A DNA stretch of 41,255 nt, taken from NCBI GenBank assembly GCA_913058215.1, contig CAJXQE010000013.1, positions 1-41,255 on the forward strand, written 5' to 3'. Source of the stretch: an uncultured Verrucomicrobiales bacterium (GTDB lineage Bacteria; Verrucomicrobiota; Verrucomicrobiia; Verrucomicrobiales; DEV007). Under the pieces are notes generated by a model. The model saw nothing but the letters and a program-made list of their open reading frames with translations, did not search any database and was not told the origin of the DNA. This document shows, in pieces, positions 1 to 41,255 of the stretch. The first letter of the stretch is position 1. The number at the start of each line of letters is the position of its first letter. The position numbers and the translations under genes are program-made.

Positions 1-48
1 CGAGATCAGCCTCGGTCTCGTGGGCTCGGAGATGTGTATAAGAGACAG
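1..48 (+). other. Illumina Nextera i7 adapter (not genomic)
   Basis: Positions 30-48 are the 19-bp Tn5 mosaic end AGATGTGTATAAGAGACAG and 15-29 are the Nextera read-2 adapter GTCTCGTGGGCTCGG. Positions 1-6 (CGAGAT) are the tail of the P7 primer and 7-14 (CAGCCTCG) sit where the 8-base i7 index goes; from memory they match Nextera index N710. This is untrimmed library adapter, so native sequence begins at about 49. Confidence 0.97.
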
Positions 49-19250: not shown

Positions 19251-19354
19251 ACAGGGTCAAATCGACGAAGCAAGCCTGTTGATTCGTCGGCGCTATTACG
19301 TTGGGATTCGGCTTTCAGCCTGGATGCGGGAGTCGTTAGAATTTGAGCAAGCTC

Positions 19355-22300: not shown

Positions 22301-25300
22301 GATCCGGATTTGCTCAAGGGATACAAGAGTCTGCTCATCAATGGTCACGACGAATACTGGTCGCGGGAAATGTATGAGGGGCTTGATCAGTATTTGAAAG
22401 CCGGCGGGACAAGCGCAGTGCTATCCGGCAACACCATGTTCTGGAGGATTACGGTCGACGACGAACTCGGTGTAATCGAATGCCGGAAGTATGGCCCGAA
22501 TATTGGCGGGCGGAAACTCGCCAATGTTGGCGAGATCTATCACAGCTTCGACAAGCAGCGCGGCAGCCTGATGAGGAACTGCGGTCTTCCGCCCTGGCAG
22601 AATATAGGGCTCGAATGCAGTGGCTGGTGGGGTGGCGCCAACAACGGGGTCTATACGGTGAATGAAAAAGCACAGGAACATTTTCTCTTTCAAAAGCCGG
22701 AGAAGATTGATTTCTCCGACCGTCAGATTTTCGGCGGCGCCAGGACCGGTCCACGAAAGGCCGGTGGGCACGAGGGAGACATTCGGCTCAGCTCATTCAG
22801 TCCGCCCACAAAAATCCCCGAGGGAACGAACTTTCCGGAGGAGCCTGAGGGGATCGAAACGCTTGCCAGCTTGAAGCGGAAAAATGCAAGGGTGCTCGAT
22901 TATTTCGCCAATTTCGGAGTTCAAGAAGACGCCACTCTTGTCGACATGATTTACTGGAAGCGGCCGCAGGGTGGAACGGTTTTCAATGCCGGAGCGATCA
23001 GTTTCGGTTGGGCACTGGACGCAGATCCGAAACAAACCAAGCTGATGAGAAATGTTCTCTTTCATCTGGCCGGAGTGAAGGCAAGGACACCCTATGATCC
23101 TGAATGGATGGAGCAGGAGAAGACACAGAAGAAGAAGAAACCAGCCGCTGCCGTCGCCGATTCTAAAACAGAGATTACGCCGGAAACGGATCACGCATTA
23201 ATTCTGCCGGCAGCTGCCGCTTCTTTGGATGGTGGATCTGTCAGGGTGAATCCGTCTCATGGTGCCCTTGCTTACTGGAAGACAGAGAAAGATGCGGCAA
23301 CTTGGAAAGTGCGCGGTGCTAAGAACGGAACTTATGCGGTGGTGATCGATTACGCTGTTCCTGCGAAATTGGCGGGTCAGGAGTTTGTCGTCAAAGCCGG
23401 TGATTCTGTGCTGAAAGCAAAGGCGGCATCCAGTGGCGGGTGGGGGAAATGGGTCGTGAGGATCGTTGGGGAAATCGAGATCAAGAAGTCCGATCTTTCC
23501 ATCAGCCTTTCTCCATCGGCAAAAGTGAAGGGAGATGACTTGCTGGATTTGCGCTCCCTCCAATTGATCCCCACAAACTCGCCCCGCCTCAAGAATCTGA
23601 AGGTGGCTGCGGCAAAGGTGGTTGATGCTAACGTTCCGACAACGCGGAGGCATCTGGCAGGCAACAAGCCGGCTCCGATCAATCCGGCAAGGGATGGCGT
23701 TTTCACTCTGACAGGGGCAAGGGCCAGTTTGTATGGCGATTCTCTATCATTGATCGAAAGCGCTGAGCCGAATCATCCTGAAGCGTCCATCGGGAAGTGG
23801 AGCAGGAAAGGGGACCGAGCCGAGTGGGAGCTGCGCGGTTTGAAAGCGGGACGCTATGACTTGCTGGTGGACTGGGCCATGCCGCGGGTTCCCGGAGGCT
23901 TGCAGAAAGTGGAGGTGGATTTGGATGGGCAGGACCTTTTCAAGGGCAATATTCGCACCACGGAAGGAGTGGATAAATATGCCGCCTACGTCATCGGAAC
24001 TGTCGAGTTGCCGGCAGGTGATCGCCGGCTTTCTTTTGGCCCGGCAGGTCTTGCGGAAACCTGGGTGCGCCTGCGGAGTTTGCGTTTGGTTCCTGCAGCG
24101 GAGGAAGGTGAATTCACAATGCCGGATCTGAAAGTGCCGGAGGGTTTTATTATCGAGCCTGTGGCGATTCCACCTTTGGTTTCTCATCCGATGATGGCCT
24201 GTCTCGATGATCGCGGTCGGATGTTTGTTTCCGAATCTGCAGGAACAAATGCAAAAGCTCCTGAGTTGCTGGAAACCCGGCCGCACAAAATATTGATGCT
24301 GGAAGACGAAGACGGCGATGGAGTTTTCGACAAGTCGACTGTATTTGCCGACAAGATGGTTCTACCGAACGGAGCGCAGTGGCACGATGGATCGCTCTAT
24401 GTCTGTTCGCCGCCATACATTTGGAAACTCACGGATACGGACGAGGACGGCGTTGCGGATGAGAGAACTCCGGTTGGCGGAAAGTTTGGCTTCAACGGAA
24501 TGTCTTCGGCATTTCACGGGCCAGTGCTCGGTCCGGATGGACGGATGTATTGGTGCGGCGGCCAACACGGCTGGACTCTGGGGGATACTTCTCCGGGACT
24601 CGATTTTGATGGGCCGTGGGTCAGTCGCGGCCCCGGCGTCTTTTCCATGTGGCCGGATGGAAGTGATCCGGAAAATCGAGCACAGGGAGGTCTTGCGAAT
24701 CCAGTTGAGGTGACTTTCTCCAGTGAAGGGGAAGTGTTCGGAACCGTGGCAGTTTACGAGAATCTGAATGGCCGAACGGATGCCCTGCTTCACTGGATTC
24801 ACGGAACTGTCTACAACTTGAAACGAAGAGGTCCGCAGGTTCACCCGAGCACGAGTAGGTCAAACCTTCCGCCTATGAGCCGGCGCGGTTGGGTGGCTCC
24901 ACCGGGACTGACACGTTACCGAAGCGGTGGTTTTGCCAATGGCTTCGGCGAGGAATATCGCGATGATATTTTCCTGACGGAATTCAATACCCACCGGGTC
25001 TATCGCATCAAGCCGGAGCGAGTTGGGGCGAGCTACCAGTCGACAGACGAAGTTTTTCTGGAATCCACCAGTCCCTACACCCATTTCACCGACACTTTCG
25101 AGGATGTAGATGGGAGTTTGTTAGTCGTCGACACCGGTGGTTGGTTTTTGTACGGCTGCCCTACCTCGGCGATTGAGCGCCCGGAAATTAAAGGGGGGAT
25201 TTACCGGATTCGAAGGAAAGACTCGAAGCCGGTTGATGACCCGGGTGGGCGAGATCTGGATTGGTGGAATCCATCGGTCGACTGGCTCGATGATCCACGC

Positions 25301-27121
25301 TTCGTCGTTCGCGACCGGGCGAAGACAGTGCTTGCCAAGCAAGGCGAATCCATTATTCCGAAATTACACCGGGTTCTGCTCGACGAAACAAGCTCGGAGC
25401 GACAGCGGAGGGAGGCGGTCTGGACCTTGACGAGAATTGATCATGACAAAGCGAGGGAAGCGGTTTCCGACGGGCTCTCTGATTCTTCCGCATCGGTTCG
25501 TCTTTCAGCCGCACGAAGTTCGAGTGTTCACCGACATCCCGAGACGATAGGGGCACTCATAGCAGTCCTCGAAGCCGGGGATGAGCCACAGATCATTCGC
25601 GAAGTTGCCACGGCTCTCGGTCGGCTCGGTACCGCAGGCGGTCCCGTGCAGAGTCTCATGAAAGCCGTTCGGAAGAATGGGGGAACCGATCGCTATCTCG
25701 ATCATTCATTGATTTATGCGCTCATTGAAATCGATCACGAAAACTACACGCGTTCCTTCCTCGAAGACAAAGATCCGAATGTTCGGCGCGCAGCCTTGAT
25801 CGCTTCTTCAGAAATGAAATCCAGCAAGCTGACAGCCGTGCATCTCGCTCCCCATTTGGCCGCTGATGATCCTGATCTCCGCGCAGAAGCTCTTCGCCTT
25901 GCGATTGCCCGCCCGGAATGGGGAGGCGAACTGCTCGGTTTTTTAAAAACCTCACTGGAGGCTGAGCCGGTCCCTCCTGCGATTGGAGAAGCGCTCCTGG
26001 CTTTTGTGGAAAACGAAGAAGTGCAGGGATTGGTCGGGGATTCCCTTAGCTCTCCTTCCAAGCGAGCATTGGCTCTCGAAGTGGTCAGTCAATCAGAGTT
26101 GAAGGCAGTTCCGGAGAGTTGGAAAATTTCCCTGGGGAAATTGCTTCGATCTTCACCTGATCAGCAATTGGTCGAGGCGATGGGAAAGTTGAAACTTTTC
26201 GGGAAAGGGAAAGATGAAGCGCTCGAAAGCTCGCGTCTCGGGATTGTGTCTGATCCCAAACAGGATTCTGCAACCCGCCTCGCAGCGATAGAGTTGGGTC
26301 TTTCCCGAAACTCCGGACCACTGCCGGAACCCGTTTTCAGCCTGCTTACCGATCAGCTTAATCCGGGGGCCTCAACAGCGAATCGAATCCGTGCCTCCAG
26401 AATATTGGGGGAAGTCAAAATGACACCGGGCCAGGAGTTAGTTTGTGCAGCGCTCACTGCCCGTTGTGCGCCGCTTGAGATAGGATCTCTTTTGAATGCA
26501 TTCGACAAGAATTCTGATCCGGAAGTTCTGGGTGCTCTTGCCGCGGGACTCGCTGATTCGCCCGGACTGTTTGGCGTGTCGGCTTCGAGACTGCAGTCCA
26601 TTTTCGGGGTCAACCCCGCAGCTGAGCTTCTGATCGTAAAACTAAGCGAAGCAGAATCTCAACGGGATGCGCGGATTGATGAGCTCTCTCAATCTATCGC
26701 CGGCCACATCGGTGATGCGGAAAAAGGCAAAGCGGCTTTCGACAAGGCGACCTGTAGGGTTTGTCATAAATCGAAAGGGGAGGGAGGCGTGATCGGACCG
26801 GAACTCACTACCATCGGGGCGATTCGGTCCAGCCGCGACCTGCTTGAGGCGATTGCCTTTCCCAGTGCAACCTTCGCCCGTGAGTATGAGCCTTTCATTG
26901 TAACAATGCAGGATGGCTCGATAAAAGCTGGCAGGCTGGGAGAAGAAACCGAAGATTCCCTGGAGTTGATCGATGCTGCCGGCCAGGTCACGAAGCTTGC
27001 CAATGGAGAGATTGCCAGCCGTGAGATGGCCAGCGTTTCCATGATGCCTCCCGGATTGGAACGGCTTTTGACTCCCAAAGAACTCGCAGATCTGGTCGCC
27101 TATTTGAAGAGCTTGAAGTGA
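19355..27121 (+). CDS. giant sulfatase / DMFase-like / PVC dehydrogenase-cytochrome fusion
   Basis: A single unbroken frame of 2,588 residues, predicted secreted (signal peptide about 1-26). Order of domains: Cys-type sulfatase (about 29-455) with formylglycine site C78-S-P-T-R and GKWHLG; an N,N-dimethylformamidase-beta-like module (about 510-1245) starting HAYADKESVEAGG, with an inserted LamG domain (about 585-728) and a C-terminal part containing GYSHLMRAERFL and GHDEYWS; two beta-sandwich repeats (about 1280-1404 and 1448-1581); the PVC membrane-bound-dehydrogenase beta-propeller (about 1586-1956); HEAT repeats (about 1980-2430); and a c-type cytochrome with C-R-V-C-H at 2467-2471 and a SMMPP methionine loop. 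A TTG at 19343 is an alternative start. The natural substrate is unknown; a sulfated glycan is plausible. Confidence 0.9.
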   Translation: MIHLSRLLLLLIVASVFCFPPRTADAADKPNIVFILTDNQGAWQLGCYGNPDFQTPNIDRIAKEGVRFTNAFANNAVCSPTRATYLTGLTPSQHGVHRYLGKGGLQIGPNAKYTLEEFTTLPEVLHREGYVNGLSGKWHLGDNANPQDGFSFWVTKQHGHSLGFLNQEVLEDGEFKIIEKHLSEYWTDRGIEFIDKTQKDNPDKPFFLFLAYNGPYTLTGAVQEPVPSPWSDPYVDSQLPSFPRPEKIHPWQRNQHNLIGNLQVGRNLAGQVTAVDSGVGRIMAELKKRGLDENTLVIYAADQGAVAGHAGFWGMGDHSKPLHGRDGTMHIPMIFRWPGKIPEGKVEDGIVTNYDFMPSVLSLLGMEMPKEPLVSPGRDFSPALRGKTLEKWDDLVFYEFENVRSVRTKEWKYTERLGEDPEVELHDLKADPDELNNLARAENHRETQVELQQRLHAWFKQNSDPQWDLWNGGDSKSRIGVRAEIKAGIKKREEAAADPSPKHAGVKLQGLHAYADKESVEAGGTINFQVSSEIPYRYRVTKLGLKVDDRSSDVLIHEAPKPFPADEQEIHPGSYVKLKKSLPAEEELKAITFECWIRPWSLKKWQGILTQHDHPENCGVGLFLNGSGQPVFLIGSGGEYEKGAQVVGPKLGLRKWHHLAASWDGEKAVLHLDGKPVGEWSAPEGSTPRKAGAANLRIGAYGSAGEVSNFFDGDIALPAIYGKALKGNEIAIRVKARGLSKPEDDSLIAFWPLDEERGVSIEDGTGNGFDGEIINHGTWMTGGPSFDGASVGRYDTSYDPDKDTERGHALRLASDDLYDCKWDSRHSFQIPKNAKSGIYSAWFDFKKDGVDYNYPVTFIVKKSKAAKTAPLAVMCSTTTWRAYNGTPFALNNNELNPNFGTSGSKNDPANPTAYNFYRDHSSGQPSYQVGLRLPWPAAGPGVIYGAAEVGYSHLMRAERFLHVWLEKQGYDFDVITNLDLHRDPDLLKGYKSLLINGHDEYWSREMYEGLDQYLKAGGTSAVLSGNTMFWRITVDDELGVIECRKYGPNIGGRKLANVGEIYHSFDKQRGSLMRNCGLPPWQNIGLECSGWWGGANNGVYTVNEKAQEHFLFQKPEKIDFSDRQIFGGARTGPRKAGGHEGDIRLSSFSPPTKIPEGTNFPEEPEGIETLASLKRKNARVLDYFANFGVQEDATLVDMIYWKRPQGGTVFNAGAISFGWALDADPKQTKLMRNVLFHLAGVKARTPYDPEWMEQEKTQKKKKPAAAVADSKTEITPETDHALILPAAAASLDGGSVRVNPSHGALAYWKTEKDAATWKVRGAKNGTYAVVIDYAVPAKLAGQEFVVKAGDSVLKAKAASSGGWGKWVVRIVGEIEIKKSDLSISLSPSAKVKGDDLLDLRSLQLIPTNSPRLKNLKVAAAKVVDANVPTTRRHLAGNKPAPINPARDGVFTLTGARASLYGDSLSLIESAEPNHPEASIGKWSRKGDRAEWELRGLKAGRYDLLVDWAMPRVPGGLQKVEVDLDGQDLFKGNIRTTEGVDKYAAYVIGTVELPAGDRRLSFGPAGLAETWVRLRSLRLVPAAEEGEFTMPDLKVPEGFIIEPVAIPPLVSHPMMACLDDRGRMFVSESAGTNAKAPELLETRPHKILMLEDEDGDGVFDKSTVFADKMVLPNGAQWHDGSLYVCSPPYIWKLTDTDEDGVADERTPVGGKFGFNGMSSAFHGPVLGPDGRMYWCGGQHGWTLGDTSPGLDFDGPWVSRGPGVFSMWPDGSDPENRAQGGLANPVEVTFSSEGEVFGTVAVYENLNGRTDALLHWIHGTVYNLKRRGPQVHPSTSRSNLPPMSRRGWVAPPGLTRYRSGGFANGFGEEYRDDIFLTEFNTHRVYRIKPERVGASYQSTDEVFLESTSPYTHFTDTFEDVDGSLLVVDTGGWFLYGCPTSAIERPEIKGGIYRIRRKDSKPVDDPGGRDLDWWNPSVDWLDDPRFVVRDRAKTVLAKQGESIIPKLHRVLLDETSSERQRREAVWTLTRIDHDKAREAVSDGLSDSSASVRLSAARSSSVHRHPETIGALIAVLEAGDEPQIIREVATALGRLGTAGGPVQSLMKAVRKNGGTDRYLDHSLIYALIEIDHENYTRSFLEDKDPNVRRAALIASSEMKSSKLTAVHLAPHLAADDPDLRAEALRLAIARPEWGGELLGFLKTSLEAEPVPPAIGEALLAFVENEEVQGLVGDSLSSPSKRALALEVVSQSELKAVPESWKISLGKLLRSSPDQQLVEAMGKLKLFGKGKDEALESSRLGIVSDPKQDSATRLAAIELGLSRNSGPLPEPVFSLLTDQLNPGASTANRIRASRILGEVKMTPGQELVCAALTARCAPLEIGSLLNAFDKNSDPEVLGALAAGLADSPGLFGVSASRLQSIFGVNPAAELLIVKLSEAESQRDARIDELSQSIAGHIGDAEKGKAAFDKATCRVCHKSKGEGGVIGPELTTIGAIRSSRDLLEAIAFPSATFAREYEPFIVTMQDGSIKAGRLGEETEDSLELIDAAGQVTKLANGEIASREMASVSMMPPGLERLLTPKELADLVAYLKSLK

Positions 27122-29673: not shown

Positions 29674-29748
29674 GCCGATGTAGCTCAGGGGTAGAGCAAT
29701 TCACTCGTAATGAATAGGTCGTGAGTTCGAATCTCACCATCGGCTCCA
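29674..29748 (+). tRNA. tRNA-Thr (anticodon CGU), CCA encoded
   Basis: Cloverleaf reads cleanly. Acceptor stem GCCGATG (29674-29680) pairs with CATCGGC (29738-29744). The D-arm GCTC...GAGC and the anticodon stem ATTCA/TGAAT with loop CTCGTAA (29704-29710) give anticodon CGT, decoding ACG as threonine. The T-arm is GTGAG-TTCGAAT-CTCAC. Discriminator U is followed by genomically encoded CCA (29746-29748). A 9-bp perfect hairpin, GGCTCCAGC-TTT-GCTGGAGCC (29742-29762), overlaps the 3' end and would compete with the acceptor stem in the precursor. Two degenerate repeats derived from its 3' end follow directly. Confidence 0.97.
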
Positions 29749-29853
29749 GCTTTGCTGGAGCCGCTAAAGAAAAAAAGTCGAACTTACGAAGTCACTAGCA
29801 CGCAGATCCCGTCACAATGTGATGGGATAATTCAATTCCGACCATCGGCTCCA
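29749..29853 (+). repeat. tRNA-Thr-derived relic repeat A (105 bp)
   Basis: Unit ending in an exact copy (29841-29853) of the last 13 bases of the tRNA, ACCATCGGCTCCA. A degenerate T-loop TTCAATT precedes that copy. Further upstream come an internal inverted repeat (ATCCC...GGGAT) and TAGC-type D-arm traces. It aligns well with relic B but cannot form an acceptor stem, so it is not a functional tRNA. Confidence 0.75.
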
Positions 29854-29870: not shown

Positions 29871-29962
29871 AAAAATCATTGAACCGACGAAGTGACTGCG
29901 GTGTTAGCTCGCAGGTCCTGTCGCGAAGCGATTGGTCAATTCGAATTTCACCATCGGCTCCA
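29854..29962 (+). repeat. tRNA-Thr-derived relic repeat B (109 bp)
   Basis: Second tandem unit ending in the same 13-mer (29950-29962), with a nearly intact T-arm (TTCGAAT loop) and a TTAGCTC D-arm trace. It shares the blocks CGAAGT-GACT, CGCAG-TCC and ATTC-ATT with relic A. The anticodon arm and acceptor 5' strand are lost. It ends 28 bp before the stop of the nSTAND gene and so marks the left edge of the putative island. Confidence 0.75.
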
Positions 29963-29990: not shown

Positions 29991-32900
29991 TCAACGATCG
30001 GATTTTTTGAACAACTTTTGAAAAAGGTTCGCCTTTGTTTTCTTTTGAGGAGTAACGACCTTGTTCACTGTCTTGAAGGATCCGACTTTTTCATTCCGGA
30101 TCCAGGTAATTACAGGCCATTCGGAATTATCTATCGAAATTTTCATTTCCGACCGGACTTCTCCGCTGACATCCTTCACGTCATTGGAATGGTTTATTTC
30201 CAGTATGCTGGAAATCATCCACTGCCCACTTTCCTCAAGAAACTCGACTTGCGGCCTCTGGTTGATTTGGAGTTTTCGAACAGGGTAAAGTTGATTATAG
30301 CCGTCCAACAACTCAAATGCTTCCGCACGGGGAATGATCCCATCGGAAAAATAGTCGATTCGATCAGCGAAGTATTTCGATTGACTTTGAATCCATCGCC
30401 TAGCTTCTAATGAGATCCCTTTGAAGTCTTCTTTATAGCTTTGCCCTGCTAATACGTACATGTCATGAGTCATTTTGGCCAGCCACTTTTCTCGCTCTTC
30501 GGTATTTGCATTTGAGAACAAGAGTTGGTTTCTTTGGCTAAACAGAAATTCAAAAATTTCCAAATCGGAGACAGGTTGGCTAGATCTTCCAGAGCGCACG
30601 AATCGCTTGAATTTTGCTTCGCCAATATTGCCGTAAACGATTCGGAAAAAACTTTTTGAAACTCCATGTGAGACCTTCCCATTTTTGATGAGTTCATAAC
30701 CGTAGAGTGCCTCGATCCCGATCGAATCCATTTCGGAGCTGGTAATCAAAACTGGAGCACGCAACCAATAATCTGCCTCTTCAAGATCTCTGCGGGATGC
30801 TTCAATTTTACGTTGGATATCATCACGGCTCAGATCGGTGCTGCCATCGAGATAATCATTGCCATATTCGGCGAACATTTCCCACTGGTTCCGAGTTCCT
30901 CTACCTGCTCCAGCTTCTAAAAATTCTTGTACTAATTCTTTAGCCGCTTGTTCTCTTGATTCCTGACTCTTGACGCCTATGGGAAGAGCAATCGGAGTCT
31001 TAGTAGTGGATTCGCCTTTCAAGTCGAGCAACGATTTTGTGAGGCCGTCGATTTGCTCTTGTAGTTTTAGGTTTTCCGCTTCAACGAAGGGTAGACGGTT
31101 CGCATCGGCTTCGACGAGGAGAAAACGTCTCATACTAGCTTCATGCTCTTTTGAAACCTTCTCAAGCTCTGCTTTCTCCATAAAATAATCGGCACGATCA
31201 TCTTCGACCTGTTGAAGGCTAGCTTCCAAAAACTTATTTAGCTCCTTTAACTCTTCGTCCTTGTCATTGAGTGCTGCGAGAGTAGAGGTTTCTCTCTCTT
31301 TGGCTAGTTTAGCTGCAATTTCCGCGGCCTTTGCAGCACCTTGGAGACGATTCGCCTTCGAGCCGATTGTAAGTACGGTGGAAACCGAAACAACAAGAAT
31401 GGCCAATGAAAACCATGCAACCGCAATAGCTGCCTTGCGCTTGGATTTTTCAGATTTTTTTATGGCGTCGTTTGCTTTTCGAATCTCTGCTTCTGCCCTT
31501 GCCTTTTCTTCCTCGGCCTTCTTCTTCTCCTCACCCGCTTTTCTTTTCTCTTCTTCCGCATTTTTCTTGGCTGTCCTGACAAGCGTTTCCGATTCCTCTA
31601 CTTTCTCGAAAAACCCTTTTTGCAGAGCCAGAAGTCTCTCTTTTTCTATATGAGAGGCTTCGAGTGTTTCCTTAAGCTGACGTTCTGCGGATTCCTTCGC
31701 TTTACGAGTCTCGTCAAGTTGATCGACGGCCTCATCCTTTGTGACTCGCAACTCTTCTTTCAGCCTGTCTCTGGCTGTTTTGATTTTTTCTTGCTCCACT
31801 TCCCTCGCTCTTTTGAGAACAGCATCCTCTTCTTCACGAACCCTCTTACTCTGAGAGGCGACTTCGGCGAATCGATCGTGAATAATCTCAACGAAAATTT
31901 TCTTATCGCGCTCTTCAACCTGGAGTAGTCGTTTGGTCACCAACAATTCCACTGGGACTTTCCCGATTGCTTTCTCGAGAGTGTCTTGCAATTGAAGGTT
32001 CCGGTGCTCGTTGTTGTCGACCAGATGCCCTTCGACTTCGCGTTTCACATTTGCGACCACTTTTTCAAGAGGACTCAACTCAACCAGTTCGAAAATAGTC
32101 TCATCTTCTGATTGGGGGGCCGTTTTGGTCGGGGCATATTTTTCATCTGAATAGGGAAAGTGAGATCCGGCCTTCAACTCATGCGGTCTACTCGAAGAAG
32201 GCTGAAGCACCTCTTCGTTGAGAAGTATTTGAAGCTGGCCTTCTCCAAAATCTTCTTTAATCTTCGCCAAGGAACACGTGCGCTTGCTTCCCTCATCTCT
32301 ACCGAATGCGTCAAGTAGCGCTGATCGAACCCTTTCGCCAAGGTCGTTGAATACGTCGTGATAATAGGACTCGAAAATAAGATCGAATTTCTCTTCAATC
32401 TGGTCCTCGGAAATCGTCTTCCTCCCTGCTTTGAGTCTATCTTTGTTGAGTCGGTCGCAGACCATACTCAGCAATGCGGGAACAATGCGGACCGGGATCT
32501 TTGATTCAGCAGCGAGATCCAGGTCATAAATCGTATCGGGGAGTTCATTGAGGCGATCCGCAATGATTTCCGCGACAGGTTTTGCGATCAAATCAGGCGC
32601 TGGTTTTTGGATTGCCTCCAAGGCTTCCTTCTGGCCAAGCGGCTTCAATTCCATTCTTCGCCGCATGGCGCTGGGAAGCTGTGTCGCCAAGCGATCAAAA
32701 AGAAAAAGATAGTCCGCCCGAAGACTCAGCAGAATTCGATAGGGTGGTAGACCTTCTCCAGACGAGTCAAAATAGCGGGCCCGGATCTTCTCCGCTTCCT
32801 TTTGGTTTTTCTTGGTGGTTGAATCAAAAATCTGAACAAACTCCTCAGGTATTCGATTTTCTGCTAAATCAGCCAATTGATTGAGAAATTCCGCGCTCTG

Positions 32901-33368
32901 CTTTGACCAGCGCTCCGAGCTTCCCTTGGTGAATACTTCTTCGAACTGATCGAACACCAGAACTACCGACGCTCCGTCGAGGCTCTCGCTTAGAATACCT
33001 TTGTCGTTGTCGTTGAACCAAGCCCATAGATTCCTCGGCCACTTACCTCTATCTTTCTCAACAGGTACGACATCATCAATCTTGCTCCAGATTTGATCGA
33101 GGAGGCTCTCGGAATCTTCCCCGAACTGGAGACGGATATAGACAGGTGTGAGCCATTTCTTTCGGAGGTCGGGAAAAAGGCCCGCTCTTATCAGGGATGT
33201 CTTTCCCAGCCCGGAGTCTCCAAAAAGAACGGTCAACACGTTGCGTTGCAATCTCCGGCGGAGGTCCGATTTTTCATAAGTCCTACCGAAGAACTTATGT
33301 GAGTCCGCTTCGCTGAAGGATTCCGGCCCGAGCCAGGGGGATTCCAATTTTGAATCTACCTCACTCAT
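29991..33368 (-). CDS. nSTAND1 NTPase with coiled coil, one TM helix and an unknown C-terminal domain
   Basis: Large signal-transduction ATPase of the STAND class (1,125 residues). The N-terminus matches nSTAND1 proteins: HKFFGRTYEKSDLRRRL, Walker A GDSGLGKTS (50-58) and Walker B VVLVFDQFEEVF (about 135-146), followed by a winged-helix-like region to about 480. A long charged coiled coil (about 500-640) leads to a single membrane helix (about 646-670), then a second coiled coil (about 675-790) and about 330 residues I do not recognise. The ATG overlaps the stop of the SIR2-TIR gene by 4 bp (ATGA), so the two are translationally coupled. Its role as sensor or scaffold is inferred from the class; no TPR, WD40 or other recognisable repeat sensor is seen. 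Confidence 0.87.
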   Translation of the reverse strand: MSEVDSKLESPWLGPESFSEADSHKFFGRTYEKSDLRRRLQRNVLTVLFGDSGLGKTSLIRAGLFPDLRKKWLTPVYIRLQFGEDSESLLDQIWSKIDDVVPVEKDRGKWPRNLWAWFNDNDKGILSESLDGASVVLVFDQFEEVFTKGSSERWSKQSAEFLNQLADLAENRIPEEFVQIFDSTTKKNQKEAEKIRARYFDSSGEGLPPYRILLSLRADYLFLFDRLATQLPSAMRRRMELKPLGQKEALEAIQKPAPDLIAKPVAEIIADRLNELPDTIYDLDLAAESKIPVRIVPALLSMVCDRLNKDRLKAGRKTISEDQIEEKFDLIFESYYHDVFNDLGERVRSALLDAFGRDEGSKRTCSLAKIKEDFGEGQLQILLNEEVLQPSSSRPHELKAGSHFPYSDEKYAPTKTAPQSEDETIFELVELSPLEKVVANVKREVEGHLVDNNEHRNLQLQDTLEKAIGKVPVELLVTKRLLQVEERDKKIFVEIIHDRFAEVASQSKRVREEEDAVLKRAREVEQEKIKTARDRLKEELRVTKDEAVDQLDETRKAKESAERQLKETLEASHIEKERLLALQKGFFEKVEESETLVRTAKKNAEEEKRKAGEEKKKAEEEKARAEAEIRKANDAIKKSEKSKRKAAIAVAWFSLAILVVSVSTVLTIGSKANRLQGAAKAAEIAAKLAKERETSTLAALNDKDEELKELNKFLEASLQQVEDDRADYFMEKAELEKVSKEHEASMRRFLLVEADANRLPFVEAENLKLQEQIDGLTKSLLDLKGESTTKTPIALPIGVKSQESREQAAKELVQEFLEAGAGRGTRNQWEMFAEYGNDYLDGSTDLSRDDIQRKIEASRRDLEEADYWLRAPVLITSSEMDSIGIEALYGYELIKNGKVSHGVSKSFFRIVYGNIGEAKFKRFVRSGRSSQPVSDLEIFEFLFSQRNQLLFSNANTEEREKWLAKMTHDMYVLAGQSYKEDFKGISLEARRWIQSQSKYFADRIDYFSDGIIPRAEAFELLDGYNQLYPVRKLQINQRPQVEFLEESGQWMISSILEINHSNDVKDVSGEVRSEMKISIDNSEWPVITWIRNEKVGSFKTVNKVVTPQKKTKANLFQKLFKKSDR

Positions 33369-34972
33369 GTAGTGACTTCTCCCCAGAATGCTTGAATCTT
33401 CTCCGAGAAGTCCTTGTCAGGTAACCCATCCGGTAGCCGCGTGTGAGTGATTTTCTGAATTTTCTCAGGAACGTTCATGTGTTTCGATTTGGTCGTCTTC
33501 AGCAGAACGGGAAAAAAGAATTTAGTAGCGGGTGCTAAAGGAATTTTGGCGGCGATTTGCCATTCCGTGAAGTAGTATCCCTTCTTTTCGGCGAGACACT
33601 CCTTAGAGATGATTGGTAGAAACGCCGTACAACGGGAAATCGCGTCAGTCATTTCCAGTTCCCATGATGATCCGGACCCGGTTTGCTCCAAATCAAACCA
33701 GGCGGGGATTCCCAAGCTATCCAGTTGTTGCTTGATCGCCTTCGCAACTACTAGATCTTTTTTCCGCGAGTAACTGATGAAGATGAAATCACCCAAAGGA
33801 GGTGTCTTCTTTGGGGGTACGAATTTAGGGTGCTCTTGGTTCTGACTTGGCAATCCTCCTTGTAATTCATATGCTGCCCAACGCTCAGAAAGTTCGTGAA
33901 TAAATAATTCCAAACCACCCGTAGCCAACTCCACAGCGGAAATTCTACTGGGGCCGAGAGTTCGGATGAATTGAAAGATCAAAGTGTCCTTCGGTGTAGT
34001 CCAGTCAGCGAAATAATTGCGATTTGCCACCTCTTCCAAAGGGCCTCGGTTCGCGATCCTTAGAAGAAATCGAGCCAACCAGTTTTCGCACTGTAGCCCT
34101 AGAAAAAGAAGATTTTTGCCCTCGAAACACTGACCCACAATTTCGGGGCAACCATCATTCAGCTCCATGATCCAGTTCAGCAGGTCATTATCCCAAATTG
34201 CAAAAGTATGCGGTTTCTTGACTTTACTGGTTCCCAATAAGTGAAAAACCTGACAGGCATTCCTGTCCGTTTCAGCGTTCTGAAAATCGTCATCGAGCAA
34301 TTCCGAATCAAGATCATCAATCATCTCGTCCGGCATTTTACTGTTGAGCGAAGAGCGAACCTTTTTCGCATGATTTGGCCAGAAGCTGCCAATTGTTGCC
34401 TCACGCCCCGCCTTCTTTAGTGCAGTTTCGAGTTTGTCGTTGAAATTGGTTGTGAGGTACGTCCGAAACCCGCGAATCGACGCAAGTTGGTCTATCATCG
34501 GTGGAAACCGGAATTTCATTTTCCGCGCCTCTTCTTCAATGTGCTGATACGCGTCGTTGAGTCTCAGCTCGGATTCCCCATCTCCATCCTGTTTCCCCTC
34601 TTCGTAGTAGCGACTCACCGCCTCTTGAAGAGCTGCGCGGCCTACTCGATTTCCCAAATCGGCATCAAGTTTCCAGCGTTTCAGTAGCCGGAAAGATAGA
34701 TCTCTGTAAAAACAGGGGCCGTCCGAGGAAGGGTCGTCCGCGTCGTATCTAAGCAAACCGCCTCCCAGCACAGGAACTACATTTCCTACCGCAATATCGC
34801 GAAGAAGGCGATCCCACTCCGATTCCTTTAGAGCTACTGGCATCGCGATTCCGGCCGATTGCGATTTTGCAGTCCGTTTTCTGGCCACCTTCTTCTTAGT
34901 AGGGGCTTTCTTCTTGGGCTGTGCCTTTTTGGCAGATCTCTTTTTTGTAGTTGTTCGTTTGGTAGATGGCAT
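33365..34972 (-). CDS. SIR2-TIR fusion with Lys-rich N-terminal tail
   Basis: 535-residue protein carrying two domain types that, in known defence proteins, degrade NAD+. Residues 1-42 are a Lys/Ala/Pro/Thr-rich tail resembling a histone H1 tail. Residues about 50-370 are SIR2-like: VPVLGGGLL (67-74), TTNFN with N176, QVFHLLG with H244, and LLFLGLQCENW. Residues about 394-535 are TIR: DFIFISYSRKKD, IPAWFDLEQTGSG and W437-E-L-E440, where E440 fits the catalytic glutamate. It is the first gene of the pair with the nSTAND1 ATPase. NAD+ depletion on activation is the favoured hypothesis; alternatively one domain may be a nucleotide-binding regulator. Confidence 0.85.
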   Translation of the reverse strand: MPSTKRTTTKKRSAKKAQPKKKAPTKKKVARKRTAKSQSAGIAMPVALKESEWDRLLRDIAVGNVVPVLGGGLLRYDADDPSSDGPCFYRDLSFRLLKRWKLDADLGNRVGRAALQEAVSRYYEEGKQDGDGESELRLNDAYQHIEEEARKMKFRFPPMIDQLASIRGFRTYLTTNFNDKLETALKKAGREATIGSFWPNHAKKVRSSLNSKMPDEMIDDLDSELLDDDFQNAETDRNACQVFHLLGTSKVKKPHTFAIWDNDLLNWIMELNDGCPEIVGQCFEGKNLLFLGLQCENWLARFLLRIANRGPLEEVANRNYFADWTTPKDTLIFQFIRTLGPSRISAVELATGGLELFIHELSERWAAYELQGGLPSQNQEHPKFVPPKKTPPLGDFIFISYSRKKDLVVAKAIKQQLDSLGIPAWFDLEQTGSGSSWELEMTDAISRCTAFLPIISKECLAEKKGYYFTEWQIAAKIPLAPATKFFFPVLLKTTKSKHMNVPEKIQKITHTRLPDGLPDKDFSEKIQAFWGEVTT

Positions 34973-35288
34973 TTCGCAACTAGGTGAGAATGGCCTGCCG
35001 TTTTCTACAATATTGAGAAAAAATGCAAGCGTTTTCTTTCGGGTGTTTCGAACGAATGGCGCTGATATAGATGAACATGAAGCGGTGTATTGAAGGTTTA
35101 GTTTGAGAAAATGATGATGTAGAGAAGCTCGATGCGGGGGGACGGTTTCATCGCTTGTTTCTCAAAAAACCTCCCAATAGGTATTCTCGCTTCCCGAATA
35201 TAGAGGGGATTTCGTTAAAGATTTCTGAAAGCGGTGCGCTTTATACTGGAAAAACGCGGATTTTTTCAAGAAGGTTCCGGTAATCATT
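34973..35288. other. divergent intergenic region of the putative defence locus
   Basis: 316 bp between the divergently transcribed SIR2-TIR and SLOG-4TM genes. It holds the imperfect hairpin at 35094-35172 and a TATACT -10-like hexamer at 35242-35247 on the plus strand without a convincing -35. No open frame or tRNA-like element is visible. Confidence 0.6.
35094..35172. other. 79-nt long imperfect hairpin / candidate structured RNA or operator
   Basis: Outer stem of 15 pairs with one 2-nt bulge: A-GGTTT-AG-TTTGAGAAA (35094-35110) against TTTCTCAAA-AAACC-T (35158-35172). Inside it, AAG plus CGATG (35125-35134, with a CT bulge) pairs with CATCG plus CTT (35149-35156), closing a G-rich loop. 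Neither strand has a U-tract after it, so it is not an ordinary terminator. Confidence 0.5.
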
Positions 35289-37730
35289 ATGACAGAATCC
35301 AGCGAGCCACAGAAATCCCTGCCATCCAGACCGGATCTTGTCCTGCGAATTGGCTTTGCCGGGAACCGTGATTTACCTTTGGATGCCAAGGGAATGATTC
35401 CCGATTCCATCAATTGGCTTCTGGATCGAATCGCACACCGCCTCGCTGAGTTTGCCCCCGGGGTTGAGGACCCCCAGACTCCCCCTGATTCTCCGGATCA
35501 CATTTTGCAGTTCTATTCTAAGAAGCGGCCGATTCTGCGATTGGTCAGTGGAATTGCTGAGGGGGCGGACACGGTGATTTCGAAGGAATTCAAACGACGA
35601 AAAGGAGCATCGAAAGAGGAAGTCGGTAAAACGCATTTCCGTCAGTCCGCCATCCTGCCCTTTTCGGTTGAAGCCTACCGGGACTCGCGCGATTCGGAGG
35701 CGCAGGAGACTTTCGATGAACTCTTCGAAGACTGCACCCACGTGATTGTCTCGGACGGTCCGGAGAAACCGTATCCCTTTGGAGTGAGCAGAGGGGATAA
35801 GGAGAAGGAATCTACGATTGATAAAGATCGGCGGGCCTATGCGTATCGGGCTCAATCCGAACTGATCCTGCGCAATTGTGACCTCGTGATAACGATGGCG
35901 GACCGCTCCCGCAGTGGAGGAGCAGGTGGCACGCTGGAAACCATTCGTGAGGCTCAGCATTTTCAGCTTCCGGTGGTTCATTTTGATCTGCAGTCTATTG
36001 GGAAAAAAGACGAAGACGGAAAAGAAGTTCGCGAGATCTCCGGAATCCGAATTACTTTGATCGAACCGGGTGAACCTTTCAAAGGTGCGTTTCTTGATGA
36101 GGAGTTTTTCACCTTCGGGGAAAACAATTATGATGATCAGACCAAAGTCGAAGGCGAACTCGACGAGTGGATCAAGGTAATCGTCGCCGGTCCAAATTTG
36201 GGCCTTGGAAGTGAGCATGGAGAGGACTCATCTCAGCAGCATCTGGAGTTTTTAGCGGAGTTCTTCGATGATTCGACCATGCCTCCGAAGAAAGGCGGAA
36301 GGGCGTTTGTGGTGAATCAACTCGGGCTGGGATGGAAGAATTTTGTCAGAATCGCGGGGATCGCGGCGAAGTGGTATCACACTGTTGTGTTACCTCCCGT
36401 GCGGAAATGGTGGCGGGGATTGAACGGGGAGTTGAAAGCGATCAAGGGAGGTGAAAGTCAGCTGCTTCAGACGGACGATACACAGAAAAACCATCCAAAA
36501 TCGAAACAGGAAGAGATTCCGGAGAAGCGGGCTTCCGAGGAAGCCTTGCAACCAATCCTCGCATTTCGAAACAGAAGTAAGTATTTGAATTACTACTACT
36601 CTGATCTCTACCGGGGAGCTTTTACTCTCAGCTATGTCCTCGCTGTTGTCGCGGTCCTCCTGGCGGGATTGAGCCTGGTGATTATCGGCGAAAAGAAAGA
36701 GTTCAGAGAGATTGCTGTGGAGATGTTTTCGGAGACGGGTTCTAAAACTGCGGTGCTGGTGGATGGGCACGGGAATGATGAGCATGAAAGGCCATCGAAC
36801 AATCCTGATGAGATAAGCAAAGAAGATTCCGGTCACGAAGGGGGGCACGGCTATCTACGGACTTTGGCTATCATTGTTGCCCTCAAGCTCTTCGTCGTGT
36901 GTCTGATTTTTGCACTGACATCGATCGGGAACAGGCGAATGTGGAATGAGCGGGCCATCAACTATCGCTACCTCGCGGAACGGCTCAGGCCTATGTTTTA
37001 CCTGCCTCTTCTGGGGAGTTTTCAACCGCCGGCGGCGGGCACGGCGCAATATGCATCGCGAGCACTCGCCCAGGGTATTTTCGACTGGGTTTTTGATGCG
37101 TTTGTCAGGGCCTTAAATCCGGAAGTGGTGTTTGCTGCTGATTCGGGAAGGGATGGGAAGGTCATTCATTTGAAGCCAGCGGTCGCACGTCAGAAAGTGA
37201 AAGACGCCCTGATTGGCTATCTCGAAGATAAAGACACCCAGCGCGGTTATCACCGGAAGACATCGAGAGAGAATCACGGTTTGTTAGAGTTCATCGAACC
37301 GGCTGCTCAATGGCTCAGTATCTCGGTGATTCTGATGGTGATCTTCGATATTGTCTTAATCTGCCTTGAGGGAGGATTTCATGACAAGGCTCCGGGAGAA
37401 ATTGCGACTCGTTTAGCTCCCTGGGCAGCATTCTTTACCGCACTGGTTCCTGCGGCGGTGGCGGCCCTGAATGGAGTTCGATTCCAGAGCGAGTGCCAAC
37501 GCCTTTCGGATCGTTCAGAAATGATGATCGGGATTCTCGACAATCACCTTCAGCGTTTCAATCGATTGGAGACGAGAATGGAGAAGTATCAAACCGCCGG
37601 GGAGAAATCATCTAATCCCCATTCGTGGAATACGGATGTGTTGCTGGCGACTGAGGGCTGTGTTCAGGATCTTGTCCGCGAATCTGCGGAGTGGACGGTT
37701 CTCTATTCGAAATCCATGCCGGAAAATTAG
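35289..37730 (+). CDS. SLOG-domain protein fused to a four-TM predicted effector
   Basis: 813 residues. The N-terminal half (about 15-330) is a SLOG-like nucleotide-binding Rossmann domain: LRIGFAGNRDLP, LRLVSGIAEGADTVISKEF near 83-101, and the later NCDLVITMADRSRSGGAGGTLETIREA block. The C-terminal half has four membrane helices in two pairs (about 447-468 and 525-548; 677-695 and 710-728), resembling SMODS/SLOG-associating TM effectors (SLATT-type). In the nucleotide-centred conflict systems described for SLOG proteins, ligand binding is proposed to trigger membrane disruption; that role is inferred here. It is divergent from the SIR2-TIR operon and convergent with the TIR gene (68 bp between stops). 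Confidence 0.82.
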   Translation: MTESSEPQKSLPSRPDLVLRIGFAGNRDLPLDAKGMIPDSINWLLDRIAHRLAEFAPGVEDPQTPPDSPDHILQFYSKKRPILRLVSGIAEGADTVISKEFKRRKGASKEEVGKTHFRQSAILPFSVEAYRDSRDSEAQETFDELFEDCTHVIVSDGPEKPYPFGVSRGDKEKESTIDKDRRAYAYRAQSELILRNCDLVITMADRSRSGGAGGTLETIREAQHFQLPVVHFDLQSIGKKDEDGKEVREISGIRITLIEPGEPFKGAFLDEEFFTFGENNYDDQTKVEGELDEWIKVIVAGPNLGLGSEHGEDSSQQHLEFLAEFFDDSTMPPKKGGRAFVVNQLGLGWKNFVRIAGIAAKWYHTVVLPPVRKWWRGLNGELKAIKGGESQLLQTDDTQKNHPKSKQEEIPEKRASEEALQPILAFRNRSKYLNYYYSDLYRGAFTLSYVLAVVAVLLAGLSLVIIGEKKEFREIAVEMFSETGSKTAVLVDGHGNDEHERPSNNPDEISKEDSGHEGGHGYLRTLAIIVALKLFVVCLIFALTSIGNRRMWNERAINYRYLAERLRPMFYLPLLGSFQPPAAGTAQYASRALAQGIFDWVFDAFVRALNPEVVFAADSGRDGKVIHLKPAVARQKVKDALIGYLEDKDTQRGYHRKTSRENHGLLEFIEPAAQWLSISVILMVIFDIVLICLEGGFHDKAPGEIATRLAPWAAFFTALVPAAVAALNGVRFQSECQRLSDRSEMMIGILDNHLQRFNRLETRMEKYQTAGEKSSNPHSWNTDVLLATEGCVQDLVRESAEWTVLYSKSMPEN

Positions 37731-37798
37731 GTTCAGCCGTTTGAGCAAGAGAGAATGTGAACGGGCGACCTATTACGTTTGCTGTGGACTCGACAAGA

Positions 37799-39217
37799 TC
37801 ATTCTTGATCGATAAATACTGGATTCCGCCGTTCCTGGAGGACTTCGACGACATTGTTAACGACACGATTAACTCTGTCTTCCAACGGGGTCTGACTGTT
37901 GAGATGTTCGTGAGCAGCATGTGCTCCCCGCAGTCCAACGATGGGGCGGCTTCGGTTTCCCGTGAGAAAGGGAAGTACCGGGACTTGATTGTTTAGCGCG
38001 TAACTCCACTCGGTAGTGCAACCCGGGCTCTGTTCGTATCCCTCGCTGAGCAATGCCACGAGGAGGGTGGCGTTTTCCAGAGCTTTATTCATTTCATCGA
38101 GCCAAATGTCCCCCGATCGGTTCTCAACTTTGTATTCCCAGCAGTTCACTCCGCGATCTTTCAGGGTGCTCACGATCCCGTCGATGAGTTCGCGGTTCCC
38201 CAGTTTTTCATCGTGGCTGATGAAAACGAGATGTTCAGCCTTTTTAAAGGTTCGCTGACTCAGCATTCTCAATCCTTCCCGTTCACTGCTGAATGACTCG
38301 GATTTCCTTGAGACAGCAGACGCCCGGTCTGATATCCGGTGAAACTGAAGTTCGTCGTCAATTCCCACCACAGAAATCGTGTCTTTCTGATATCCTGCGG
38401 GATGACCCTGGAGAATATCAGGCATTAAGGCAGGATCCTTTCCGGAGCTTAACCGGATGGTGGGAATCATCAGGGAATGTGCGGCAAGATAGAGAGGCTG
38501 AAATTTCGGATTGCTGACGTCCGCGACGAGCAAGCCGATGGAACGCAAGGATTGAAACAGCTCAGCATCTGTCTGACAAAACTTCTCAAGCGATTTTGGC
38601 TCATCGAAGTTGCCCTTTACCAATGCTTCTCCGATCAAATTAATTTTCGGAGCATTTTCACTTTCTTCGTCGATCAGGTAGGCCGTTCGGGAAGGGGGAG
38701 TCCAGAGTTCAGGCACACGGCATCTTTTCACTCTCTCCAGCCATTGCGTGACCTCGGTTTGAAGTTGAGAATCCTCCTGATTATTTCCGAGGCGGGCTCT
38801 GAGGTCCTCAAAATCCCTCTCAACAGATGTACAATTAGGGACTTCTAAAAGGTGGCTTTTGAAGCGGGTGGCACGATCCAGCAGGACAAAACAGGGCAGA
38901 CCCAAACGCTGAGCGAGCCGTAGCTCAAAGAGAATGTAAGGTGAGCACGCTTTGTATCTCCAGTCGCCGGAAGCACTGTTGTCAATTGCGGCTTCGTTAT
39001 CGGGGATGCATGCAGGAAGACAGCATAGAAAAACGTCAGCCTTTCGCATGATCGTTTCCATACGGCTGATAAAATAGGGCTTATCTTCTTCCGAGCTTGG
39101 TTCGGGCTGGTCGATGATCAATTGGCAGTCGTCGGCCACCGTTCTCCACAGCATTTCATTGATCGGTAAGTAGTCCGGATTCCAGGGATGGCTGAAGTAG
39201 ATCTCAAATTTCGACAT
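37799..39217 (-). CDS. TIR-domain protein with two additional TIR/deoxyribosyltransferase-like regions
   Basis: 472 residues. The C-terminal TIR domain (about 328-465) is clear: HLVFISHDEKLGNRELIDGI, RGVNCWEYKVENRSGDIW, W372-L-D-E375 fitting the catalytic glutamate position, and ATLLVALLSEGYEQSPGCTTEW. Residues 1-145 (FEIYFSHPWNP; YFISRMETIMRKADVFLCCLP; LFELRLAQRLGLPCFVLLD) and about 190-258 (INLIGEALVKG; SIGLLVADVSNP; LYLAAHSLMIPTIRL) look like related alpha/beta nucleoside-deoxyribosyltransferase or TIR-like folds. No signal peptide or TM helix is seen. It may be an NADase effector, or a producer or sensor of an NAD-derived signal. The stop lies 68 bp from the SLOG-4TM stop. Confidence 0.8.
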   Translation of the reverse strand: MSKFEIYFSHPWNPDYLPINEMLWRTVADDCQLIIDQPEPSSEEDKPYFISRMETIMRKADVFLCCLPACIPDNEAAIDNSASGDWRYKACSPYILFELRLAQRLGLPCFVLLDRATRFKSHLLEVPNCTSVERDFEDLRARLGNNQEDSQLQTEVTQWLERVKRCRVPELWTPPSRTAYLIDEESENAPKINLIGEALVKGNFDEPKSLEKFCQTDAELFQSLRSIGLLVADVSNPKFQPLYLAAHSLMIPTIRLSSGKDPALMPDILQGHPAGYQKDTISVVGIDDELQFHRISDRASAVSRKSESFSSEREGLRMLSQRTFKKAEHLVFISHDEKLGNRELIDGIVSTLKDRGVNCWEYKVENRSGDIWLDEMNKALENATLLVALLSEGYEQSPGCTTEWSYALNNQVPVLPFLTGNRSRPIVGLRGAHAAHEHLNSQTPLEDRVNRVVNNVVEVLQERRNPVFIDQE

Positions 39218-40046: not shown

Positions 40047-41236
40047 ATGCCCAATCCTTTCCAATTGAGATCCTTTTTTGTCCTCCTCCTTCTTTCTGCA
40101 TCCCTTGGAAGCTTTCCAGCCGGGGCTGTCGCGGAGCCCATCTTCCATTCAGATTTCGAGCAGCCTGATTCGCTGAACAACTGGCACCCGTTCCAGCCGG
40201 GGCAGGCTCCTGCTGTTTCCCTCACGAAATCCGGGCAACTCCGCGGGGAAAGATCTCAGGATGCCGGCCTGGTAGCTTTGTCTCATTCCTTTGACTCCCC
40301 AAAGCAGCGTGTCCTGATTGATTTTCGTCTGGCAGTTTCTCACGGGAACGGTCGGACTTTCCACATTTGGACACAGGAGCCGAAGGGCAAGGATGCCAGC
40401 CAGTTGAATCTTTGTGTGCAGAGCAACGGCCGATTGCAGCAGTTCGACGGCTTTAGCCGTACATGGGAGAATGTGGGGCAGGTGAAAATTCCACCGACTC
40501 TGGATGAATCAAATCCAGTCTGGACACGGATTGAAGCCCTGCTTGATGCCCAGTCACACGGGATCGAAATTCGGGTTTCGGAACCTGGCAGTGATGTTCT
40601 TCCTGAGAAACCGACGGCTACGCTTGTTGCCTACCGGATGAACCTTTTGATCGATGGAATCAGTTTTGTTTCGGGAACCCGGATTGCGGAAGGGGCCTTT
40701 TATCTGATCGATGAGTTGAGCGTTCAAGGCGGAACCGATTTGCCGGAACCCGGGCCGGCACCGGCTCCGCCGGAGATGTTTCCGCTTTGGAGTGGTCCGG
40801 AATTGTCGGCTGATCCGGGAAAGCTTCCTGTTCCGGAGGGCATTGAGCATCGCCTGATTCATCGACCGGATGCCGACGGCTATAAATTTCTTCACGGCGC
40901 GGCCATTCTCGAACACGAAGGCGTTTTCTATGCTAACTGGGCGGCGAGTCCGATTGATGAAAACAGTGCCGCTGAGACTTTACAAGGAAAGCGATCTACT
41001 GATGGCGGGAAAACCTGGTCAGATTTGGAAGTTATCGGGCCGGGGTTCAAAGGTGAGGACCGTCATAGCCATGGGGTTCTTTTTGAACACAAGGGAGAGG
41101 TGTGGACGATTGCTGCCCGGTTCGGCGTCGGGGTGCCGGGGCGGAAATTTCAGGGGTTGAAAGCTGAAGCTTTTGTTCTGAATTCGAAAACCGACAAATG
41201 GGAATCGCGCGGAATCGTGATGGAGAACTGTTGGCC
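40047..41236 (+). CDS. secreted Asp-box/sialidase-like protein, 3' truncated by contig end
   Basis: Open frame from ATG 40047 with no stop before the adapter, about 396 codons visible. The signal peptide (PFQLRSFFVLLLLSASLGSFPAGAVAE) ends near residue 30. A LamG-like beta-sandwich follows (about 31-235: IFHSDFEQPDSLNNWHP; VLIDFRLAV; YLIDELSV), then a Pro-rich linker (PEPGPAPAPPE) and the start of a BNR propeller (HGAAILEHEGVFYANWAASP; Asp-box-like RSTDGGKTWSDLEV). This architecture suggests an exo-sialidase or other glycan-active secreted hydrolase. The catalytic Arg triad cannot be verified because the rest is missing. Confidence 0.82.
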
Positions 41237-41255
41237 CTGTCTCTTATACACATCT
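41237..41255 (+). other. Nextera mosaic-end adapter (not genomic)
   Basis: CTGTCTCTTATACACATCT is the reverse complement of the 19-bp Tn5 mosaic end used in Nextera libraries. It truncates the sialidase-like gene; native sequence ends at 41236. Confidence 0.97.

Follow-up and report, generated by a model that had tools for sequence, protein, structure and literature searches.

Introduction

The subject of this work is a block of four adjacent genes, A to D, on contig C13 of an uncultured Verrucomicrobiales bacterium whose genome comprises 7.67 Mb in 595 contigs. This contig, 41,255 bases long, is the whole stretch of DNA that was analysed and is called the window below. The closest described systems combine some of the domains TIR, SIR2, STAND, SLOG and SLATT. 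TIR domains that act as NAD+-cleaving enzymes (NADases) have a glutamate as their catalytic residue. The SLOG and SLATT domains were reportedly named by Burroughs et al. in 2015.

Thoeris associates a TIR protein, ThsB, with ThsA effectors that are SIR2 proteins in type I, transmembrane (TM)-macro proteins in type II and caspase-like proteins in type IV (PMC12847820), the type I effector being a SIR2-SLOG protein (PMC11204291). Avs5 carries nSTAND3 and an active SIR2 domain on one chain, and the substitutions N110A and D112A each abolished its immunity (PMC12931631). The Aravind group predicted that SLATT proteins are pore effectors responsive to nucleotide signals and pointed to TIR-SLATT neighbourhoods in phages (PMC9503650, PMC7159879). 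Phage defence by DRT10 needs a SLATT protein (PMC12632851). In Swarozyc, DUF4062 is reported to be a TIR-like NADase that assembles with the phage portal (PMC13174449). Finally, a co-selection analysis of pneumococci connects variants of ypsA, a gene of the SLOG superfamily, with a DUF4231 gene (PMC11368177).

The four genes and how they compare with described systems

A preliminary description of this DNA had given four consecutive genes, and the list of open reading frames (ORFs) agrees with it in their coordinates, strands and order:

29991-33368, minus strand: gene A, nSTAND1-type STAND NTPase of 1125 residues; P-loop GDSGLGKT (residue 50) and Walker B VVLVFDQFEE (135); a TM helix is predicted at 648-666, and the C-terminal region is a putative sensor
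33365-34972, minus strand: gene B, fusion of a SIR2-like part and a TIR domain, 535 residues, overlapping A by 4 bases; SIR2_2 171-309 (Pfam; family model about 35-386), TIR 397-508
34973-35288, intergenic: divergent region between B and C, predicted place for the promoters of both genes
35289-37730, plus strand: gene C, putative SLOG domain and two membrane units of two helices each, of DUF4231/SLATT type, 813 residues; SLOG about 14-260, TM helices near 449, 525, 668 and 709
37799-39217, minus strand: gene D, protein with a C-terminal TIR domain, 472 residues; TIR 331-430, CTTEW at the glutamate site

The domain types named in that description were recovered as well. Pfam gives nSTAND1 in A (E 1.8e-24), TIR_2 (E 3.4e-15) and SIR2_2 (E 4.5e-9) in B, and TIR_2 in D (E 2.1e-17); by hydropathy, A has one predicted TM helix and C has four. 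No Pfam family is significant for the window copy of C, whose domains were recognised through its relatives (see below). In PADLOC, B and D obtain low scores with partial matches and A and C no match, and all four proteins fall below the cut-offs of NCBIfam.

Like Thoeris, the locus has TIR enzymes that stand beside a SLOG protein or membrane effector, and a TIR-made messenger might likewise act on a receptor-effector. The differences are that SLOG is here fused to SLATT helices, that SIR2 is fused to TIR rather than to SLOG, and that a STAND ATPase is coupled to them. The TIR protein of type I Thoeris has counterparts in B and D (TIR_2 in both), whereas its single SIR2-SLOG chain has none, SIR2 being on B and SLOG on C; the ThsA model of PADLOC matches B over 26 residues only (11.6 bits, E 0.031). 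Macro, caspase, CD-NTase and DUF4062 families are absent from the matches of A to D (in Pfam, and for CD-NTase also in PADLOC and NCBIfam), and with them the TM-macro or caspase-like effectors of Thoeris types II and IV, the CD-NTase of CBASS and the DUF4062 of Swarozyc. Swarozyc resembles our case in its TIR-like NADase, and genes joining DUF4062 to nSTAND1 or NACHT occur near four relatives of C. With Avs5 and other Avs or SIR2-STAND systems the locus shares the association of SIR2 with a STAND ATPase and the variable C-terminal sensor; yet Avs5 unites nSTAND3 and an active SIR2 on a single chain, and here there are two chains, nSTAND1, a TIR domain and a SIR2 motif lacking the full Asn and Asp set. 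In DRT10 the SLATT protein is tied to a reverse transcriptase and a non-coding RNA, not to TIR, and the available part of the source does not mention SLOG (PMC12632851). The conflict systems of the Aravind group are alike in their nucleotide-responsive SLATT pore effectors and TIR-SLATT neighbourhoods; a SIR2-TIR protein, an nSTAND1 partner and the four-gene set are not described in the parts of these papers available to us (PMC9503650, PMC7159879).

Earlier ideas, namely SLATT as a nucleotide-responsive effector, TIR-SLATT neighbourhoods and the SLATT protein of DRT10, cover much of the mechanism that we propose. The set A to D was not described among the matches listed in our literature searches (titles and starts of abstracts). 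A SIR2-TIR fusion was not found described in the literature searched either, which is weak evidence given the many subscription papers outside it. What the locus would add is a two-chain design, a SIR2-TIR protein with an nSTAND1 partner, in which the SIR2 motif seems decayed and the TIR domain kept.

We propose that this is an immune locus in which a STAND ATPase triggers signalling by TIR proteins and a SLATT membrane effector gated by SLOG receives the signal, and we give this reading a probability of about 0.45. A would detect a cue of infection, assemble and gather its dedicated partner B. B would work through its TIR domain, its SIR2-like part being probably non-catalytic or an altered nucleotide-binding module, with D as another TIR enzyme. 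Cleavage of NAD+ by the TIR domains would yield an ADP-ribose-type messenger; once this is bound by the SLOG domain of C, the duplicated SLATT hairpins would assemble or open in the inner membrane, and the effect on the membrane would halt growth ahead of phage release.

The STAND gene and the SIR2-TIR gene form a conserved pair

Gene B has matches in 7 genomes of a set of 95 relatives (the source genome counted), including five loci flanked by nSTAND, three in G075 and one each in G042 and G047. An alignment of eight rows matched 63 of 387 genomes of the phylum, mostly in the TIR part only, and added five full-length relatives (G360, G237, G159, G147 and G384); since two of its rows, L049 and L053, had been taken from loci of C, this search was partly non-blind to C. 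Plasmids contributed one more relative, from Paraburkholderia. An nSTAND gene adjoins B in all 11 of these relatives, with one small ORF in between in G237 and G159. When the window, L049 and L053 are included, the distances among the 14 A proteins closely follow those among the B proteins (Mantel r 0.967, a value reached by none of 5000 permutations, host relatedness being uncorrected). The P-loop pattern of A is present in 13 of the 14 pairs, the exception being L049, and DQFEE in all of them. Judged from their sequences, A and B are a conserved and co-inherited pair, and the coupling of a STAND ATPase to the SIR2-TIR protein, assumed in the preliminary description, is borne out.

The count of pairs leaves out G166, with a SIR2 part and a remnant of TIR, and a B-like gene cut by the contig end (G000:C135). 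The latter (L023, 25-1122, minus strand) is a second, diverged SIR2-TIR gene of the source genome, with the SIR2 motif STTFD. A phmmer search of B against PDB sequences returned a single match of no use (E 0.68). In L111 to L114 the SIR2-TIR/nSTAND pair is surrounded by several TIR genes, most of which have a predicted TM helix; the one scanned has TPRs.

If B is an enzyme, which of its two domains acts? None of the 15 copies has both the Asn and the Asp of the SIR2 motif. The window copy reads TTNFN, with the Asn kept and the Asp changed to Asn, and also retains the His of VFHLLG; the other 14 copies are without the Asn. NADase activity of the SIR2 part is doubtful for this reason. Every copy that extends far enough to be judged has the TIR glutamate (14 of 14; E470 in the window), and D has one as well on reading its CTTEW motif; cleavage of NAD+ is in both cases a prediction. 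The kept glutamate and the incomplete SIR2 motif together point to TIR as the likely enzyme of B; the role of the SIR2 part is perhaps structural, or an altered one.

These residues bear on another explanation, in which assembly by A turns B into an NADase that exhausts cellular NAD+, as in Avs5 or other STAND-linked NADases, with C and D modulating or backing up a killing done by B itself. The constancy of the TIR glutamate and the Asn and His left in the SIR2 part of the window copy would suit such a direct killer, as would the nine pair loci out of 11 in which nSTAND stands beside B without C. The incomplete SIR2 residues of every copy speak against it, and so does the neighbourhood of C, whose relatives lie near TIR genes far more often than control regions do, suggesting a receptor for a TIR product. 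On balance we hold this explanation to be unlikely.

Gene C and its family

We call C a SLOG domain followed by two SLATT units, a name that rests on family motifs and a structural model. Alignments of 20 and 26 members conserve a GVTGHR-like start, an SPLAEGADR-like block and a D-LIA-WDG-like block with GGT, as well as an RW-DYR-LAE-LR-like block after the second helix. We take the N-terminal motifs to be those of the SLOG superfamily. DUF4231 is matched by 17 of the 26 aligned members and SLATT_1 by 6 (E <= 0.01), the window copy matching neither. In an AlphaFold2 model made from the family alignment, the N-terminus is of alpha/beta type and two long helical hairpins are present (predicted local distance difference test, pLDDT, 77.5; predicted template modelling score, pTM, 0.79). 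C thus presents the motifs of SLOG followed by two-helix units of SLATT/DUF4231 type, in keeping with a SLOG-SLATT family.

The C model matches 34 of the 387 genomes of the phylum sample, the source genome counted, and 28 of them were examined for neighbourhood; G073, G120, G186, G258, G334 and G345, all weak, were left out, as were second weak matches in some genomes. Scanning one genome per species (a set of 84,980 species) with a four-member alignment gave 37 loci. On plasmids, tblastn found one protein, annotated DUF4231, in two Caballeronia records; at the one locus read, a TIR gene, then an uncharacterised gene and an nSTAND-WD40 gene come after the C-type gene. Among viral contigs, searched for C alone, 33 stretches fitted the pattern and none was confirmed. 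The matches of the model in L112, L113 and L115 are not SLOG-4TM proteins; on reading they are TPR, SLOG and cyclase-like proteins and were counted apart. A relative of 1128 residues in L017/L044 was trimmed to the ATG at L017:7736, its first 280 residues looking like a spurious upstream extension.

Relatives of C recur near TIR genes

We ran home-made hidden Markov models (HMMs) of TIR, nSTAND, the SIR2 part and C on every ORF of at least 100 residues. C is full-length at 29 of the 37 loci from the species scan and at 19 of the 28 from the phylum set, 48 altogether, and the partial ones (8/37 and 9/28) were dropped. Four of the phylum-set loci (L112 to L115, 4/28) had first been fetched through B; all four also match the search with C, which is full-length only in L114.

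A TIR gene lies within 2 kb of a full C at 16/29 and 7/19 loci, and within 5 kb at 18/29 and 7/19, i.e. 25/48. Genes for nSTAND are found within 5 kb at 2/29 and 4/19, and either kind at 18/29 and 10/19 (28/48). A SIR2-TIR gene is near C at 2/29 and 1/19. Among 17 random regions of 19 kb, all drawn from phylum-set genomes and none from the species scan, not one has a TIR, STAND, SIR2-TIR or C match. In these counts the TIR of L151 is a fragment of 106 residues overlapping the frame of C, and the nearest TIR gene in L053 and L114 is B. Pfam confirms TIR in all eight C neighbours of one test set and in the TIR genes of L049, L153 and L114. Some genes beside C at other loci match ThsB_TIR of Pfam, a family with no listed match to B or D up to E 1. 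That C-type and TIR genes repeatedly lie close together agrees with what is expected of a SLOG-SLATT family, that is, neighbours that process nucleotides.

Alternatives of TIR-like kind occur too. At four loci a neighbour of C begins with DUF4062 fused to nSTAND1 or NACHT; DUF4062 is above the Pfam cut-off in L047 and just below it in L157, L160 and L162, whose nSTAND1 is strong. A deoxyribosyltransferase match below the cut-off, with a TPR-S region, occurs in L163. Two SLOG-SLATT genes stand one on each side of a TIR gene in L055 (9986-18218), and two stand in tandem in L058 (1860-5504). Genes for patatin-like phospholipases adjoin SLOG-SLATT genes in L053, L161, L162 and L164, as if a second membrane-damaging effector were placed on a common signal.

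Loci that combine the pair with C

L049 and L114 hold all four kinds of gene, whereas L053 and L020 hold A, B and C. L049, from a gammaproteobacterial metagenome-assembled genome (MAG), has on one strand B, A, an ORF that shares the frame of A and lies beyond a stop, C and a TIR gene. In L114 (G147, of the same class as the source genome), A and B are on the minus strand and C on the plus strand, B and C head to head as in the window, and additional TIR genes stand beside A. The order is patatin, C, B, A in L053, from an acidobacterial MAG; L020 (G047, of the same family as the source genome) has B, A and a convergent C-like gene (E 1e-13) with a degraded GGT motif. The preliminary description took scattered homologues without co-occurrence as what would count against it, and this is not what these loci and the TIR neighbours of C reveal.

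Seen from the pair, a full C is found at 2/11 loci, a protein of SLOG-cyclase type at 3/11, and neither at 6/11, of which G042 and one G075 locus are on short contigs. The three (G237, G159 and G384) have near the pair, instead of C, a protein with TPR, SLOG and cyclase-like parts. Such TPR, SLOG-like and class III cyclase-like proteins, near pairs or C, are the following:

L112, 362-2389
L113, 2307-4352
L115, 3186-5525
L043, 2929-4695

Pfam finds TPR-S in L112 and L043 and a cyclase, just below the cut-off, in L043 only; the remainder was assigned by reading the sequence. These proteins may represent another type of component that senses nucleotides or makes a signal.

One may tentatively go further and see here a distinct branch of TIR immunity, in which A and B form a STAND-licensed signal generator, the decayed SIR2 serving for nucleotide binding or as a scaffold and TIR as the enzyme, that drives a SLOG-gated, four-helix SLATT protein. 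The outcome would then be failure of the membrane and not loss of NAD+, and TIR, DUF4062 and SLOG-cyclase inputs would be mixed and matched across phyla; we think this somewhat less than probable. For SLATT membrane effectors, nucleotide gating has been predicted, and the pore is still called a prediction in the papers cited here. A SLOG domain on the SLATT chain, with TIR nearby in about half of the loci, makes it testable whether a TIR product opens a SLATT channel.

One pathway or several units

Several observations weigh against STAND-triggered signalling through TIR to SLOG-SLATT. The pair and C are mostly apart, the pair being at 3/48 loci of C and full C at 2/11 loci of the pair. At 20/48 full C loci these HMMs find no TIR or nSTAND within 5 kb (one of them is L047, where a DUF4062-NACHT gene comes after C). 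Closeness is no proof of a joint pathway, since defence genes cluster anyway and our control regions were drawn at random rather than from defence islands. SLOG is assigned to C from family motifs and model topology, and none of the PDB matches that Foldseek gave for the whole model reached an E under 0.001 (best E 0.055). D stands on its own strand, and no full-length relative of it was found in the 387 phylum genomes or on plasmids, the searches made for it, the 84,980-species set being outside them. Lastly, NADase, messenger and pore are predictions for every member.

The main rival is that the island holds two or three independent defence units, the A/B pair and a C-D unit, with no signal between them, which we regard as a serious though not the likelier outcome. 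SIR2-TIR was not found at 45 of the 48 full C loci, and the six pair loci with neither C nor a SLOG-cyclase protein have no SLOG protein in the flanks examined, albeit two of them are on contigs of 9.2 and 13.3 kb. The strand switches between B, C and D, and a variable tRNA-Thr site can collect unrelated cargo. Independent units would fit less well with the head-to-head arrangement of B and C in both the window and L114, and with A, B and C lying within 8 kb of each other in the window, L020, L049, L053 and L114, that is, in several lineages.

A function outside defence, such as a membrane response to the levels of NAD+ or ADP-ribose in a nucleotide-stress signalling cluster, seems to us very improbable. 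The role in phage defence is something that we infer, and some loci of C have ordinary contexts, e.g. a TrkA-N protein beside C in L051. Yet patatin genes accompany C at the four loci given above, and the patchy distribution of C (34/387 genomes) and the variable tRNA site are as usual for defence cargo.

The second TIR gene

Of the multi-TIR protein put forward in the preliminary description, one TIR domain stands: that of D. The two further regions, thought to resemble TIR or deoxyribosyltransferases, are unproven. The first 325 residues match no Pfam family, single-sequence hhalign comparisons of them with TIR and SLOG alignments gave probabilities of at most 3%, and the AlphaFold model of D made without an alignment is too poor to assign a fold (pLDDT 35.7). 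In the other 386 genomes of the phylum sample, D has relatives for its TIR domain and for no other part, and on plasmids it has no match at E 1e-5.

The tRNA-Thr site and composition

The block lies, as had been noted, next to tRNA relics, two degraded copies of the 3' end of an intact tRNA-Thr that precedes them:

29674-29748, plus strand: intact tRNA-Thr(CGT), left of the block
29796-29853, plus strand: degraded 3'-end copy, last 28 nucleotides 75% identical
29905-29962, plus strand: degraded 3'-end copy, last 28 nucleotides 89% identical, separated from the 3' end of A by about 30 bases

No tRNA copy marks the right end of an insertion in the window. The stretch with a sigma gene and the tRNA is matched in 32 of 33 genomes of the genus. 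In the 14 loci examined tRNA-Thr(CGT) is always present, and one stretch ends at it. Of the remaining 13, seven carry near the tRNA a TPR gene of a single family, G011 has it about 7 kb away, three have other genes, and a tyrosine integrase directly follows the tRNA in two congeners, G007 and G014 (integrase genes L209 958-2202 and L210 915-2189). The content of this site varies among congeners. Proof of an empty site was not reached, as the TPR gene trailing the tRNA in seven congeners sits on another contig and in another setting in the source genome, and mobility of the block is not proven. The idea of one transferable module holds in that the set recurs outside this genome and the tRNA-Thr site is variable, but not in that its members always travel together (3/48, 2/11, and TIR-only matches for D).

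A low GC content had been reported over much of 30 to 35 kb. It is confined to A (0.466) and B (0.483) when each gene is compared with positions 1-29600 (0.525), and does not extend to C (0.519) and D (0.505).

Both ends of the window (30-48 and 41237-41255) carry adapter words that we take to be from the Nextera transposase, an artefact of assembly trimming, and the last ORF (40047-41255) terminates in residues derived from the adapter. At 19343-27121 there is an ORF of 2592 residues that by eye looks like a sulfatase followed by several further domains, together with a haem motif, CxxCH.

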